Positions 39,636 to 45,594 of a DNA stretch of 64,000 bases are shown piece by piece. Below the pieces are notes generated by a model that was given only the letters and a program-made list of their open reading frames with translations, was not told where the DNA came from and did not search any database. Origin of the DNA: Phycisphaerae bacterium (GTDB taxonomy: Bacteria > Planctomycetota > Phycisphaerae > UBA1845 > UTPLA1); the NCBI GenBank assembly GCA_019636475.1, contig JAHBXN010000008.1:1-64000 (forward strand), read 5' to 3'. A program made the translations under genes and the position numbers. Within the stretch, counting starts at the first letter, position 1. Each line of letters starts with the position of its first letter.

Positions 39636-39950
39636 ATCGCGGATTATCGGCGTTTGCCCGTGCGAAGACAACAAAAGTCGGACCGGTTGAGCGACCGTCC
39701 AGAAAAAATCAGCATGGCGGCAAGAAAAATCGCGCCAAAAGCGCCGACTTGAACATTGGAATACGCTATTATCGAGCAAGGCTCTGTTCGTCCTTCGGGC
39801 GAATCCAGGTCGAAGTGCGTCGGCCACGACGCATGATCAGGGTGTGGGTTGAGTGGGTCGCCGAGCAGCACAGCCGGCGAAAACACGCGTCTGTTGCAAC
39901 GGACCGGATGGTCCGGACATGGCGGCGGCGGACGCTCATCGGGAGACATC
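39636..39950. other. Divergent intergenic region with AT-rich patch
   Basis: Between mfd and the metzincin gene. The stretch 39700-39775 is clearly richer in A/T than its surroundings and includes TATTAT at 39767-39772. No -35 with normal spacing was found, but promoters for both genes probably lie here. Confidence 0.4.
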
Positions 39951-42900
39951 ATGGCGGTTTCAAGTCGGTCGTACGGCCGAGCATTCGGCGCGTTGTCGGT
40001 ATTTGCCATTGCGGTGGCCGGACTTGTGCTGGCGTTGCCCAAGCACGCAGAACCGGTTGCGCTGTCAGCACAATGCCAAGTCAACAGCACATTGGCTGCA
40101 TCGGATTCTTCATGGGAAAGGGAGCGGGCCGCCCATGTTGAGAAAATGGAAAGCATCATTTTCCCGCATCTGATCGATTCCTTGACGCCCGTGCAGCAGG
40201 ACCTGCTGATGACCCGCATTCGAGATCTTTACTATTCCGAACCGCCGGCCATGACGCCGGCCATGCTGTGTTTCGCTCCCGGAACGCCGGACGAGGTCGT
40301 CGAGGCTTTTGCGGCCGTTGATGAGTTTGAGGGGCGTTACAACCAGACCAACCGATGGTCAACGACGGCATCCGGATCGACCGGTTCCCAAGGCAATCCG
40401 ATCACGCTTACATACGGCTTTCCCGCGGATGGCGTGAACATTCCCGTCGTGTCCGGAGTCGGTTTCGCCGCCGGACCAAACCAACTCAATGCGTGGCTGA
40501 ATGGCCGGTACGGAAGTCAGGCGGTCTGGAAGCCGATCTTCGACTCCGTCTTCAATCGGTGGTCACAGCTATCCGGCGTCACCTATGTGTACGAACCCAA
40601 CGACGATGGCGTCGCCATGCATCAGAATCCCGGCGTCCTTGGCGTTCGCGCGGATGTGCGCATCGGAGCCAAGCAGTTTGTCTCAAGTTCGAGCGGCCTG
40701 CCTGACGGAAACGGCAACGTTCTGGCATACAACAACTTCCCGAACGACGGCGACATGGTCTTGGATGCGTTCGACACTTTCTATAACGATACATCGGGAA
40801 ACTCGCTCAAACTGCGAAACGTCGTCTCGCACGAGCACGGACACGGCACCGGCCAACTGCATGTGTGTCCGATCAATCAGTCCAAGCTGATGGAGCCGTT
40901 CATCTCGACCGCGTATGACGGACCTCGTCACGATGACGTTCGCAATATGCAGCGTCATTACGGTGATCCCTTCGAACCGGACAACAATCCCGCTCAGGCT
41001 ACCGATCTCGGAGACTTCACGATCGGCAACGGCTTGACGGTCGGAACGGTTCCGCTTCCGTCCATGCCGTTCGGTTCGTTGCTCAGCATTGACGCCAATA
41101 GTGAGCAGGACTACTTCTTCTTTGAGGTTAATGCCGCATGTTCCGTCACGGTGACCGTCACTCCGATCGGCACGACCTACGACGACAGCGATCAGGCCTG
41201 CCCGGGACAGAGCGGCTCCTGCTGCAGCGGAAACAACTTCGATTCGCTTTCGGTCGCCGATCTGAATGTCGATGTGATCGGGCAGAATGGTGTCACGGTT
41301 CTTGCAACCGGAAACTCATCGCCGATCGGACAGCCTGAGACATTGACGAATGTTCAGTTGACGTCGCCGGGCGGCTACTTCTTCCGCGTCTATGAAGGCA
41401 ACACACCCACGTCCACCCAGCTCTATCGCCTGAATTTTTCGATCAGCGCTCCGGTATTTCAACCGCCGTCGATCACGCTGCCCAATGGGGCGCCGACGCT
41501 GCTGATCGGAGGGGAGCCGAAGTCGTTCAATGTTCAAATCGATCCGGGCAACGACTCGGTGGTCGCCGGCTCGAGGTTGCTTTTCTATCGATATGACGGC
41601 GGTGCGTATCAGTCGGTTCCGCTGGGTTCGCTCGGCGGAAATCTCTACTCTGCCACGCTGCCCGCACCGACTTGCAGCGCGACCCCCCAGTTTTATCTTT
41701 CCGCGACTGGCGTCACCGCCGGACAGGTGACGAATCCGGCCGGCGGCGCTTCCGCTCCGTACACCGCGACGATCGGGCCGATTCCTCTGATTGACAACTT
41801 CGAGTCCGATCAAGGCTGGACCGCGGTGCTCGACGGCGGAGACGGGCTGTGGCAGCGCGGCGTGCCCGTGAATTGCAATCGAGGAGATCCACCGTCGGAT
41901 TTCGATGGCTCCGGCCAGTGCTACCTGACAGACAACGATCCCAACAACTGCAATTCCGACGTCGATGACGGATCCACCACGCTTACGTCGCCACCGTTCA
42001 GTATGGGCGAGGGTGATGTCATCTCCTATGCTTACTGGCTCAACGATTTCACCGGCGGTTTGCTCCAGGGCGGCGATTCGCTCCGAGTCGAGATCGCGAC
42101 GGACAGTGCCGGCACCAACTGGGCCACGGTCCGCAACTACACCACTGCGCTCAACGCATGGCGTACCGACACCATCACGGTCGGCGTCGATGTCAGCCCT
42201 TCGCAGACGATGCGGATCAGGTTCACCGCGAACGATATTGGCACGCAGAACGTGGTGGAGGCGGCGATTGATGCCTTCGTCGCCGACGGTCCGATTTGTG
42301 AAGATCCGATTGAAACGCCGGATGTGCCGACAGGCGTGACCGCTGAAGACGGCGCCGCCTGCACCGAAATCACGCTGGGTTGGAATGCTTCAGCCGGTGC
42401 CGTCGATTACCAGGTCTATCGAGGTACCGTCGATGACCCCAATTTGGCCACTCAGCTTGCATCAGGTGTGGTGGGCACGGGTTTTGTCGACTCCACTGCC
42501 CCGGTAGGCCAGATCCTGTATTACTGGGTCAAGGCGTGCAATACGTCGGGGTGTTCCGACTTCAGTGCGTCCGATACGGGATCGACGCTGTCGCCGCCGG
42601 GAGTTGTGTCAGGCCTCAACGCCACCAACGATACGATATGCGGCGCGATTGAAGTCACGTGGAACGCCATGATCGACGCGGATTCATATGTCGTTCGCCG
42701 CAATACGCTTGACGACTTTGACGGCGCGGACGTCATCGCCAACATCGCTGAAACAAGTTTCCGCGACGGGCAGACTGATCATCAACTGGACTACTACTAC
42801 TGGGTGACGGCATCGAACGGCTGCGGCGAAGGTGAGCCTGGCTCTGCAGCCGTCGGCAGCGCATCGCCGAAAGGTGATTTCAATTTCGACGGCTTCATCG

Positions 42901-43043
42901 ATGGCGCGGATATTCAAGGTTTTGTCGAGGCTATGTTGGGTGAGCCTTCGACCTTCGAATGTGCCGACCTCGATGCACCGCTTGGCGTCCTCAATGATGA
43001 CGACATCGCTGCGATGATCGCCCTGCTGCTTGCGGGTGCGTAA
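39951..43043 (+). CDS. Secreted metzincin-type metalloprotease with FN3 and dockerin-like domains
   Basis: A 1030-residue exported protein; the ATG at 39951 follows GGGAGA and opens a signal peptide (about 8-28). The catalytic motif is H294-E-H-G-H298-G-T-G-Q-L-H304, an exact HExxHxxGxxH metzincin zinc site, with a plausible Met-turn methionine at 314 (K-L-M-E-P). The fold resembles matrixin M10 proteases. Then come beta-sandwich domains, including one with F-E-S-D-Q-G-W, two FN3-like domains (near 790 and 880), and a C-terminal dockerin-like motif (D-F-N-F-D-G-F-I-D-G-A-D-I). It probably acts outside the cell or on the surface. Confidence 0.87.
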   Translation: MAVSSRSYGRAFGALSVFAIAVAGLVLALPKHAEPVALSAQCQVNSTLAASDSSWERERAAHVEKMESIIFPHLIDSLTPVQQDLLMTRIRDLYYSEPPAMTPAMLCFAPGTPDEVVEAFAAVDEFEGRYNQTNRWSTTASGSTGSQGNPITLTYGFPADGVNIPVVSGVGFAAGPNQLNAWLNGRYGSQAVWKPIFDSVFNRWSQLSGVTYVYEPNDDGVAMHQNPGVLGVRADVRIGAKQFVSSSSGLPDGNGNVLAYNNFPNDGDMVLDAFDTFYNDTSGNSLKLRNVVSHEHGHGTGQLHVCPINQSKLMEPFISTAYDGPRHDDVRNMQRHYGDPFEPDNNPAQATDLGDFTIGNGLTVGTVPLPSMPFGSLLSIDANSEQDYFFFEVNAACSVTVTVTPIGTTYDDSDQACPGQSGSCCSGNNFDSLSVADLNVDVIGQNGVTVLATGNSSPIGQPETLTNVQLTSPGGYFFRVYEGNTPTSTQLYRLNFSISAPVFQPPSITLPNGAPTLLIGGEPKSFNVQIDPGNDSVVAGSRLLFYRYDGGAYQSVPLGSLGGNLYSATLPAPTCSATPQFYLSATGVTAGQVTNPAGGASAPYTATIGPIPLIDNFESDQGWTAVLDGGDGLWQRGVPVNCNRGDPPSDFDGSGQCYLTDNDPNNCNSDVDDGSTTLTSPPFSMGEGDVISYAYWLNDFTGGLLQGGDSLRVEIATDSAGTNWATVRNYTTALNAWRTDTITVGVDVSPSQTMRIRFTANDIGTQNVVEAAIDAFVADGPICEDPIETPDVPTGVTAEDGAACTEITLGWNASAGAVDYQVYRGTVDDPNLATQLASGVVGTGFVDSTAPVGQILYYWVKACNTSGCSDFSASDTGSTLSPPGVVSGLNATNDTICGAIEVTWNAMIDADSYVVRRNTLDDFDGADVIANIAETSFRDGQTDHQLDYYYWVTASNGCGEGEPGSAAVGSASPKGDFNFDGFIDGADIQGFVEAMLGEPSTFECADLDAPLGVLNDDDIAAMIALLLAGA

Positions 43044-43134
43044 AATCCCGCGATGGAGGCACTGGTTCAATGCGGCGGCCGACGAGCGAGGACCGGCCGT
43101 CGCATGTGGCCGCGCGTGCGATCTGCGAGATTGA

Positions 43135-43185: not shown

Positions 43186-43236
43186 GAAACGATTGCAGTA
43201 GGGAATTTTCTTAGCATCGCGAAGGCAGTCGTTGAC

Positions 43237-43242
43237 TATAAT
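43237..43242 (+). promoter_or_regulatory. -10 element of the structured RNA candidate
   Basis: A perfect TATAAT placed to start transcription near 43249, just before the long hairpin at 43258. The -35 region is poor (best candidate TTAGCA at 43211-43216, spacing 20), so the promoter may need an activator or an alternative contact. Confidence 0.5.
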
Positions 43243-43248
43243 CTGCCG

Positions 43249-43357
43249 AGGACAGACAGAGCGATGGGCGTGCCAGCCCACGTTTGACCACGATCCTTCC
43301 TCTCTCCGGCCCGAACACTCGTGGTTGAACTTGGCACGCCTGTCGCTCTTTTTGTTT
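43249..43357 (+). ncRNA. Candidate rod-like small RNA with CU-rich anti-SD loop
   Basis: An intergenic stretch that folds into one long hairpin: an 18-bp helix without mismatches (43258-43275 with 43332-43349, two G-U pairs), a 6-by-1 internal loop, a second 12-bp helix (43282-43293 with 43319-43330, two G-U pairs) and a 25-base apical loop. The helix is directly followed by TTTTTGTTT, so the whole RNA ends like an intrinsic terminator. TATAAT lies upstream. The apical loop begins with UCCUUCCUCUCUCC, complementary to GGAG/GAGG ribosome sites. It does not match 4.5S SRP RNA, tmRNA or RNase P features. The folding was done by eye. Confidence 0.55.
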
Positions 43358-43491: not shown

Positions 43492-44286
43492 TTAACCTTC
43501 CGCGCAAAGCAGCGACTCAAACCTGCGTTTCGCCAGGGCGATGTCATGGATGCGCTGGTCCCCTGTCGTCCGCGAGAGAATGAGCGGGCCGCGTGCGCCG
43601 GCCTCGTGGAGCGCTGCCAGAAATGCAGCCGGATCGAGTTGTCCTTCTCCGGGCGCGGTCTCATGGCCAGGCGCGCCGGCATCGCCGGCGACGGCGTCGC
43701 GCGCCCGCGCAATGCGAATGCGACCGGCAAGCACGTCCGCGACGCGGTGCGGATTCTCGCCTCGCAGGAGCATGCCGCCGCTATCGCAGCAGGCAGTCAG
43801 ATTCGGACAGTTTACCGTCTGCAGCATTGATCGCAGATCGGCCGCACTGATGCCTGCGGTGTCGATTGCGACCGTGACGCCGCAGCGATCCGCCATGTCC
43901 GCCATTTGAACAATCGCCTCAAGAAGGCGATCTTTTTCCCGGCCGTCGGCATCGGTCGTGACGCTTCCCACTGTCGTCGAGACCGTCGACACGCGAAGTG
44001 AGGATGCCAGGTTGATGATACGCTTCAGCGAAGCAAGACGCCGGTCGCCAGCGCTGCGGTCTGCGTAACCGGCGCCGCCCGTCGGTCCGCGAAGGCAGTG
44101 CAGATTCAAACCGATGTCGGCCAGGTGCCGTGAGAAGTGTCGTTCTCCGCTCCTGCTCAATTCCTCGGGCGATATGGGCCCGTGCATCGCGCCGACCTCA
44201 ACGAAGTGAACGCCGATCTGACGCACGACATCCAGTGCCGGTCGAAGTTCCATCCTGAGATCATCAACGCTGATTGAGAGTTCCAT
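43492..44286 (-). CDS. Sugar-phosphate isomerase/epimerase-like TIM-barrel protein
   Basis: A 264-residue protein resembling the xylose-isomerase-like TIM-barrel (AP endonuclease 2) family: D-D-L-R-M-E-L at the first strand, G-V-H-F-V-E-V-G-A, S-T-V-S-T-T-V-G-S, T-V-A-I-D-T-A and L-T-A-C-C-D-S-G-G. The usual metal ligands (Glu, Asp, His, Glu) are not clearly conserved: the canonical Glu after the fifth strand reads Asp in V-A-I-D-T, and the later His/Asp cluster is hard to place. It may be a degenerate or non-catalytic member. The ATG at 44286 lies after GGAGG; a GTG at 44304 is in frame but overlaps that site. Confidence 0.65.
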   Translation of the reverse strand: MELSISVDDLRMELRPALDVVRQIGVHFVEVGAMHGPISPEELSRSGERHFSRHLADIGLNLHCLRGPTGGAGYADRSAGDRRLASLKRIINLASSLRVSTVSTTVGSVTTDADGREKDRLLEAIVQMADMADRCGVTVAIDTAGISAADLRSMLQTVNCPNLTACCDSGGMLLRGENPHRVADVLAGRIRIARARDAVAGDAGAPGHETAPGEGQLDPAAFLAALHEAGARGPLILSRTTGDQRIHDIALAKRRFESLLCAEG

Positions 44287-44518
44287 GGATGTGAGATCCT
44301 CCACGTCGCTTCAGTGATTCTCCGTCGAGGCTCGTTGCGCCCGGACGGGTCACAATTCCCCGAATATTTCAGCTCAGCCCCCGGTTTGCCTGGAGGCTGG
44401 AACAAATGGCCGCGAAACCGCATAATGCGAATTTTCAAGAACAGAGTGAACGGTCTAACGGCCGTCGTATGGACGCCAGGCCTCGTCACCTCCGAGTCAA
44501 GCAAAAGGGGATTGGAAC

Positions 44519-44938
44519 ATGTATCGGGATCATATCAAGTCTTTTGCGTTCGTTTTGGTGGGAGTCGGTATTCTCAGTGCGGGATTGGCGGTGGTGGCTG
44601 AACCGAAATCCGACGACAAACCAGCGACTTTCAAACCTGCGATGGAACTGGAGCAATTGATGGAATGCCAGAACCGGCTCTTCAAGGAAGTCAAGGATGG
44701 CTTGCTGGACAAGAAGTGGAAACAGGCGTCGGAATCCGCCTGGGTGCTTGCCGAACTGGCGAACGTGAATCAATACCACAATGAGAATTCCGACTATCGC
44801 GGGCACGCCAAAAAGATGATGGACGAGTGCGTCACGCTTGCCAAAGCGCTGAAGAATCGCGACGAAGCGGCTTCGAAAGAAGCAGTTAAGGCCGTCGGTA
44901 ACGCCTGCGGTGCCTGCCACGACCAGTTCAAAAAGTAA
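44519..44938 (+). CDS. Cytochrome c'-like small c-type cytochrome
   Basis: A 139-residue exported haem protein. A signal peptide spans about 8-27. The rest is helical, with a C-terminal haem attachment site C130-G-A-C133-H134-D-Q-F-K-K, the arrangement of cytochrome c' and related four-helix cytochromes where the C-x-x-C-H sits in the last helix. It likely works in the periplasm as an electron carrier or gas (NO/O2) binder. A possible promoter (TGGAAC, 17 bases, CATAAT at 44421-44426) lies upstream, and an intrinsic terminator lies immediately downstream, indicating a monocistronic transcript. Confidence 0.88.
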   Translation: MYRDHIKSFAFVLVGVGILSAGLAVVAEPKSDDKPATFKPAMELEQLMECQNRLFKEVKDGLLDKKWKQASESAWVLAELANVNQYHNENSDYRGHAKKMMDECVTLAKALKNRDEAASKEAVKAVGNACGACHDQFKK

Positions 44939-44964: not shown

Positions 44965-45276
44965 CGCATCTTGAAGAGCTGCTGATTGATTCGGCTCCGA
45001 CCGCATGACGTCGAGGGTGACGCCTGCTCGATCCCATGTGCGAATTGGCGCGCCTTTTCTTCACGCCTGTGCGTAGGCAACGCGCCGAGTTCGCGCTCAG
45101 CGGACTGTGCTTCAGTGGAACCGTCGATTGGAGTATCTGAACACGGTCCGATTTCGCGAACGATTCATTGGCATGGCAATTGCCAAATCGAACCGCCGTT
45201 CGATCGCCCCATGGCCGATCGACCGTGCTCTCTCCAACCACGGACATCCGAGTTTTTTCGCAAAGGAGTATATTTG
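44965..45276. other. Intergenic region upstream of the Asn/Asp lipoprotein
   Basis: About 310 bases. The only notable element is a perfect 12-bp palindrome TGGCAATTGCCA at 45174-45185, about 90 bases before the lipoprotein start; it may be an operator. No convincing sigma70 promoter was seen. Confidence 0.35.
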
Positions 45277-45594
45277 ATGAAGATTCGACGCCGATTGACG
45301 CCAGTTCTTGCCGCCGCACTGATGTTCATCGCAGCCTGCACCAGCGAGCAGTTGGATCAAATACAGCAGATTCTAAGCGATCTCGGCATCACGATCATCG
45401 TGAATCAGAACGGCAATTCGAACAACAACGGGAATAACAACGCCAACGACAACAACGACGACGACAACAACAACGACGACGACAACAACAACGACGACAA
45501 CAACAACGACAACGATAACAACGACAACGATAACGATAACTCGAACGACAACAATGACGACAACGCCAACAGCAACGATAACACCGGAGGTTGA
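45277..45594 (+). CDS. Lipoprotein with long Asn/Asp repeat tail
   Basis: A 105-residue predicted lipoprotein. The signal M-K-I-R-R-R-L-T-P-V-L-A-A-A-L-M-F-I-A-A-C places the lipid Cys at 21. A short amphipathic helix (S-E-Q-L-D-Q-I-Q-Q-I-L-S-D-L-G) follows. From residue 46 almost everything is Asn, Asp and a few Gly/Ser/Ala, about 58 residues long, ending in a double Gly. The DNA of this tail is a run of AAC and GAC codons, so the length may vary between strains by slippage. AAAGGAG precedes the ATG. Function unknown; the tail may be a hydrophilic spacer or bind cations. Confidence 0.75.
   Translation: MKIRRRLTPVLAAALMFIAACTSEQLDQIQQILSDLGITIIVNQNGNSNNNGNNNANDNNDDDNNNDDDNNNDDNNNDNDNNDNDNDNSNDNNDDNANSNDNTGG
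45411..45592 (+). repeat. AAC/GAC codon repeat tract
   Basis: Imperfect trinucleotide repeats (mostly AAC, GAC, AAT, GAT codons) encoding the Asn/Asp tail of the lipoprotein. The opposite strand gives spurious poly-Val and Leu/Ser-rich frames. Confidence 0.85.

Follow-up and report, generated by a model that had tools for sequence, protein, structure and literature searches.

Two convergent genes in the window (the whole 64,000-nucleotide stretch of DNA that was analysed), one for a Peptidase_M10-containing protein (39849-43043, + strand) and one for a xylose-isomerase-like TIM-barrel protein (43492-44304, − strand), flank a sequence that folds into a single long hairpin. The locus raises the question of whether this hairpin is the body of a functional RNA and, if so, what switches it on and what its loop acts upon. 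A preliminary description had read it as an independent small RNA that ends at an intrinsic terminator and whose anti-Shine-Dalgarno loop would act on flp and other envelope genes. We put at about three in four the probability that the locus encodes a stand-alone regulatory small RNA of ~95 to 110 nt that, in many relatives, is transcribed by the sigma-54 polymerase with the help of an NtrC-type activator paired with a protoglobin kinase, and whose loop works in trans.

The hairpin body spans positions 43258 to 43349 of the + strand. Its outer stem of 18 pairs, two of them G-U, joins 43258-43275 to 43332-43349; an asymmetric 5′ bulge, or 6x1 internal loop, sets six nucleotides (43276-43281) against one (43331); and an inner stem of 12 pairs, again with two G-U, joins 43282-43293 to 43319-43330. 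These stems close an apical loop of 25 nt (43294-43318) that starts UCCUUCCUCUCUCC and holds the loop core CCTCTCTCCGGCCCGAACA (43299-43317), made up of a pyrimidine tract and the near-invariant CGGCCCGAA. A candidate −10 box, TATAAT, lies at 43237-43242, and the U-run TTTTTGTTT of an intrinsic terminator at 43349-43357. This geometry agrees base by base with the preliminary description, including the placement of TATAAT and TTTTTGTTT; the genes on either side converge, with ends at 43043 (+) and 43492 (−). The minimum free energy of the rod is −56.7 kcal/mol, compared with a mean of −32.3 (standard deviation, 3.3) for 200 dinucleotide-preserving shuffles, none of which was equally stable (z = −7.36); in this computed fold the internal loop is slightly different (5x0). 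The rod occurs once in its own 4.4-Mb genome.

The matches obtained by blastn against 60 relatives were centred on the apical loop, and the sequences around them showed the same rod fold with different letters in the stems. A first model (R1) was built from an alignment of eight copies (A1) and a second (R2) from 45 sequences. In 91 distinct copies, in an alignment that was fitted to the model and has some built-in bias towards structure, two-sided changes were seen in all 28 stem pairs, and 91.4% of the cells were paired, versus 37 to 47% in slid controls. The outer stem contributed 16 of 16 modelled pairs with such changes (92.4% of cells paired) and the inner stem 12 of 12 (95.6%). Cells with two-sided changes numbered 883 versus 256 in shuffles, and none of 500 shuffles was as high. 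The 45-copy alignment, fitted in the same way and with the same bias, also gave changes in 28 of 28 pairs (93.5% of cells paired versus 36 to 46% in slid controls). The slid controls lead in the same direction as RNAalifold on the unfitted A1, where 13 pairs have compensatory changes among the eight sequences. Most relatives share a common anatomy of outer stem, 5′ bulge of 4 to 8 nt facing 0 to 2 nt, inner stem and loop; a few copies form one unbroken stem. The hairpin is a real small RNA family, not previously catalogued, in which the letters of the rod are free and the pairing is kept.

The covariance-model search proposed in the preliminary description, which named a lack of conservation in relatives as a refuting outcome, instead found the rod, with helices and loop kept, in 74 of the 114 genomes of its order, probably GTDB UBA1845. 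Each of these genomes has one to three copies, in tandem in several; loci L047, L076, L079, L088, L163, L166, L167 and L170 hold two or three tandem copies ~90 to 230 nt apart. Of 294 genomes sampled across the phylum, R2 matched the own genome alone (0 of 293 others), and among 397 genomes of the class it gave one match outside the order (G407, E = 2e-4), which was rejected as spurious. Both this match and one at G083:C455 were discarded for having no pyrimidine tract before GGCCCGAAC. When one genome per GTDB species was searched for CCYCYCYYCGGCCCGAACA, the pattern of the loop, 72 stretches were obtained, whose record names lead to Phycisphaerae. Under R1, every stretch from Planctomycetota forms the rod and none of about two dozen from other phyla does; the same loop letters, occurring there by chance, come without the rod and thus provide an internal negative control, and these exact-pattern matches were set aside.

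The window copy (G000:C8:43259-43351) has the rod, 5′ bulge, pyrimidine tract and CGGCCCGAA loop and scores 86.5 bits (E = 1.5e-17) against R2, a score that it has by construction as one of the model's 45 sequences; the matches in genomes outside the model are independent. With Rfam 15, the whole window gave only a tRNA elsewhere and no family at the rod at the gathering threshold, and at a relaxed E value the locus drew two eukaryotic microRNA models, both well short of their thresholds (23 versus 60 bits and 17 versus 150 bits). The rod RNA is a new bacterial small RNA family, with a well-supported structure and a partly supported control circuit. Planctomycete small RNAs have hardly been described, and no study of a small RNA in this class was found in an open-access full-text library. 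The family, with unusually clear covariation through a whole order, offers a concrete hypothesis for a control circuit and a nine-base loop element that could be used as bait for the partner, and would open a way into RNA-based oxygen and redox control in a deep-branching phylum.

Transcription of the rod was explored through the sequences at its two ends. A run of at least four T stands at the 3′ end in 62 of the 91 copies, versus 5.5% of random positions, which indicates that the rod also serves as an intrinsic terminator. Exact TATAAT occurs within 50 nt before the rod in 11 of 91 copies, with 0.7 expected. The kept U-run and the over-represented TATAAT, together with the helices and loop preserved in relatives, bear out the earlier view of an independent small RNA that ends at an intrinsic terminator. 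About a quarter of the copies (25 of 91) are preceded by a sigma-54 box (TGGCAC-N5-TTGCW, score of at least 13 of 15), compared with 0.5 by shuffling and 1 of 90 far upstream, and in 23 of these 25 the −12 element lies 9 to 26 nt before the rod. The other three quarters or so, the window's among them, have no consensus box. In the window, a degenerate AAGGCAGTCGTTGAC (43221-43236, + strand), scoring below that cut-off, stands where these relatives have their −24/−12 promoter; GG-N10-GC is absent, with AAGGCAGTCGTTGACTATAAT there and TATAAT instead. In copies without a sigma-54 box (L045, L049, L055, L037, L042, L068, L075 and L078), the rod is immediately preceded, on the 5′ side, by a small hairpin whose stem letters differ; this may be a further structural part of the RNA.

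Expectation maximization on the regions upstream of the sigma-54-type copies revealed a 16-bp palindrome, TGnGgnAATTncCnCA, mostly 87 to 100 nt before the −24 element, with a log-likelihood of 119 versus 32 to 43 for shuffles; exact palindrome and k-mer counts had missed it. In five genomes (G034, G052, G104, G105 and G107) the RNA gene adjoins that of an activator, from which it is 5 to 7 kb away in G109 and G086. According to the Pfam domains of the G034 homologues, the activator is an NtrC-type response regulator (Response_reg, Sigma54_activat, HTH_8) and the kinase upstream of it is of Protoglobin-HisKA-HATPase architecture. In NCBIfam, the activator falls below every named equivalog, the nearest being AtoC. 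Its orthologues (at least 55% identity; paralogues at most 43%) are present in ~88 of the 114 genomes of the order, the own genome included, and in almost none of the class outside the order, where three matches of 49 to 53% were obtained. The own genome has the combination that marks an NmpR-type regulon, a protoglobin kinase with an NtrC-type regulator: its activator (G000:C4:447395-448759, 60% identical) adjoins a kinase that shares 44% identity with the protoglobin kinase.

The palindrome also precedes the kinase-activator operon itself, in sequences outside the training set, in 8 of 26 genomes versus 3.4% (p = 1.5e-6, an optimistic value because some of the 26 genomes are related). In G008 and G006, paired palindromes 20 to 21 bp apart lie between divergent sigma-54 promoters, one for a CBS-domain protein and the other for the kinase operon. 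The palindrome is thus a putative binding site of the activator. The pattern of palindrome plus promoter gave 14 matches versus 1 for the control; the 14 include a gene that resembles 2-oxoacid:ferredoxin oxidoreductase, present in two genomes, and one that resembles HypF, both named from reading the proteins. The loci concerned (L279, L280 and L282), where the palindrome and a sigma-54 promoter stand before these genes, point to an anaerobic regulon. Two loci also have large open reading frames that separate the RNA from the kinase-regulator pair or lie next to them (L261, 844-4438; L262, 7933-11728), one of which reads as pyruvate:ferredoxin oxidoreductase.

In many relatives, sigma-54 RNA polymerase would thus read the gene once the NtrC-type regulator, paired with the protoglobin-coupled histidine kinase, activates it. 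The preliminary description had not anticipated this context of sigma-54 and a globin-coupled two-component system. Given activation through such a pair, oxygen, or else a different heme ligand or a redox cue, should drive the level of the RNA up or down. The natural reading of the regulon that includes the RNA would be an oxygen- or redox-responsive one, with oxygen as the probable signal. Within the order, the co-occurrence of RNA and activator is moderate (61 of 88 versus 11 of 26, p = 0.02, with noise added by incomplete genomes), and the sigma-54-type copies are not significantly more strongly tied to activator-positive genomes than the others (p = 0.48). The window copy may be under the same control as its relatives. 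It is linked to the circuit only in that its genome encodes the regulator and in that it has a palindrome, TGCGTAAAATCCCGCG (43037-43052, + strand; score of 14.3 with a position weight matrix trained on other copies), which is a weak candidate for an activator-binding site: its distance upstream of the rod, ~220 nt, exceeds that in relatives, and four sites of such strength occur in the 64 kb.

As for the action of the RNA, the long rod would serve as a structural handle, the lower end of which, with the U-run, would form the transcription terminator. The loop, with CGGCCCGAA and the pyrimidine tract, would be the working part, offered in trans to a partner, either RNA or protein. With the 91 copies aligned on the loop core, each of the nine CGGCCCGAA positions is identical in 89 to 91 of them, and the tract before it keeps mainly its pyrimidine character, which makes the CU tract the less constrained half of the loop. 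The preliminary description had assigned the action to this half, through pairing with GGAG-type ribosome sites of envelope or other mRNAs that blocks translation. Published RNAs do act in this manner (RsaE/RoxS, PMC4409812), and the C/U swaps by which the tract stays pyrimidine preserve pairing with purine sites via G-U. However, the invariant CGGCCCGAA is no complement of a Shine-Dalgarno sequence, and none of three pairing tests gave a positive result. The window contains fewer copies of GGAGAG than chance predicts (22 versus 31.5); the duplex energies of the loop core at 202 start sites, judged against shuffled loops, show no preference for ribosome-site regions over intragenic or coding ones; and GGGCCGGAG-N{4,11}-ATG is rarer than a scrambled (anagram) control that keeps the Shine-Dalgarno sequence. 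These tests take away the grounds given for an anti-Shine-Dalgarno role at envelope genes, which is not supported, while particular targets may still exist; we consider ribosome-site masking in general unlikely. As a target signature, the extended loop complement GTTCGGGCCGGRG was abandoned, its many matches being scattered and in part the RNA's own antisense strand. A partner other than mRNAs fits the near-identity of the nine loop positions against a rod in which every stem pair varies, and also the conserved complement not being enriched before start codons. The loop would then bind a protein, as a sponge or cofactor RNA, with CGGCCCGAA as the recognition element that the rod presents and stabilises. 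Pairing with one highly conserved RNA would, however, give near-invariance too, and we regard protein binding as possible but doubtful. Loop-loop dimerisation through CCGG/GGCC was rejected, as it would involve just 4 bp. Tentatively, we suggest that the loop with CGGCCCGAA acts otherwise than by Shine-Dalgarno masking, for example by engaging a dedicated protein or else a single RNA that is universally conserved, in an oxygen-responsive RNA of a single order with a sequence-free rod.

Two further explanations would dispense with action in trans. The rod and U-run could form a cis-acting leader or attenuator that ends transcription before the next gene on the same strand, and there are neighbours to suit this: nadE (glutamine-dependent NAD+ synthetase) lies downstream on the same strand at 19 loci (among them L114, L117, L119, L120, L122, L125, L127, L142-L144, L147 and L149; median distance of 143 nt), and an amidohydrolase (Amidohydro_3) at nine (L118, L126, L129, L130, L133, L145, L156, L161 and L162; median of 75 nt). 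Yet downstream genes vary between families, the next gene is on the opposite strand in 27 of 88 loci, as it is in the window, tandem copies occur without a common downstream gene, and the loop is constant whatever gene follows, all of which makes attenuation quite improbable. The adjacency to nadE may reflect either synteny or a functional link; no conserved complement of the neighbouring RNA was found in the nadE leader. A mobile or repetitive palindrome devoid of RNA function is suggested by the long inverted repeat, palindromes of this size being often mobile, but its probability is negligible. The own genome has a single copy and relatives have one to three each, the core is absent from 2.9 million viral contigs, every stem pair has compensatory changes across divergent loci, and synteny follows lineages; copy number and covariation rule this reading out. 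A different sequence, GGGCCGGAGGCCCATG, which resembles a small repeated hairpin, occurs about a dozen times each in G041 and G065, on many contigs.

The reading as a trans-acting small RNA under sigma-54 control has partial counterparts among known systems. By analogy, the rod RNA would be a functional analogue of RoxS/RsaE and GlmY and a homologue of neither; the likeness seems greatest to RoxS/RsaE in signal logic and to GlmY in promoter and neighbourhood logic, with membership in neither family. In Firmicutes, RoxS/RsaE is activated by the O2/NO-responsive two-component system ResDE/SrrAB, has pyrimidine-rich unpaired segments and counts the NAD kinase mRNA (ppnKB) among its targets (PMC4409812), which recalls the nadE gene that adjoins the rod RNA in many relatives. 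In contrast, the rod RNA has sigma-54 and a globin-coupled kinase, and a single long rod and loop where RoxS/RsaE has several C-rich regions; Shine-Dalgarno pairing is not supported for it. No sequence or structural relation to RoxS/RsaE was found, and the rod RNA has no Rfam match.

GlmY of Enterobacteriaceae is a sigma-54-dependent small RNA activated by the NtrC-type regulator of QseE/QseF via upstream sites, encoded beside this two-component system, and acting as a decoy for RapZ in glucosamine-6-phosphate control (PMC6075780, PMC8745638). Some relatives of the rod RNA share the sigma-54 promoter, the NtrC-type activator and the adjacency to a two-component system, and differ in sensor, structure and lineage, with no match of the rod RNA to the Rfam GlmY family. 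NfeR1 and related rhizobial trans-acting RNAs with anti-Shine-Dalgarno loops are also order-restricted, with a conserved pyrimidine-rich loop motif (PMC3927594, PMC10746234). Their motif is CCUCCUCCC, whereas the rod RNA has CGGCCCGAA, a longer rod and a 5′ bulge, and no homology was found in this comparison. The signalling part of the proposed circuit has its published counterpart in NmpU/NmpR and AfGcHK of myxobacteria, where O2 binding to a protoglobin histidine kinase controls the kinase and an NtrC-like sigma-54-dependent regulator belongs to the pathway; NmpU and NmpR are linked by the hybrid kinase NmpS, pilR is controlled, and the accessible text describes no regulatory RNA output (PMC6211767, PMC8697598). 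The rod RNA has no Rfam match to 6S RNA (RF00013), and its open region is the apical loop versus a central bubble in 6S RNA.

Two minor observations concern the part of the window beyond the hairpin. At 45037-45184, a sigma-54-like TGGCATGGCAATTGCC (45169) has a palindrome, TGTGCGAATTGGCGCG, 132 nt upstream; both precede the gene of a putative lipoprotein whose tail is rich in Asn/Asp, within the open reading frame 44986-45594, and this gene may be another regulon member in the own genome. Adjoining the downstream neighbour of the RNA, a gene at 44519-44938 (+ strand) encodes a small protein with a CGACH heme-binding motif, which by eye is cytochrome-c-like.
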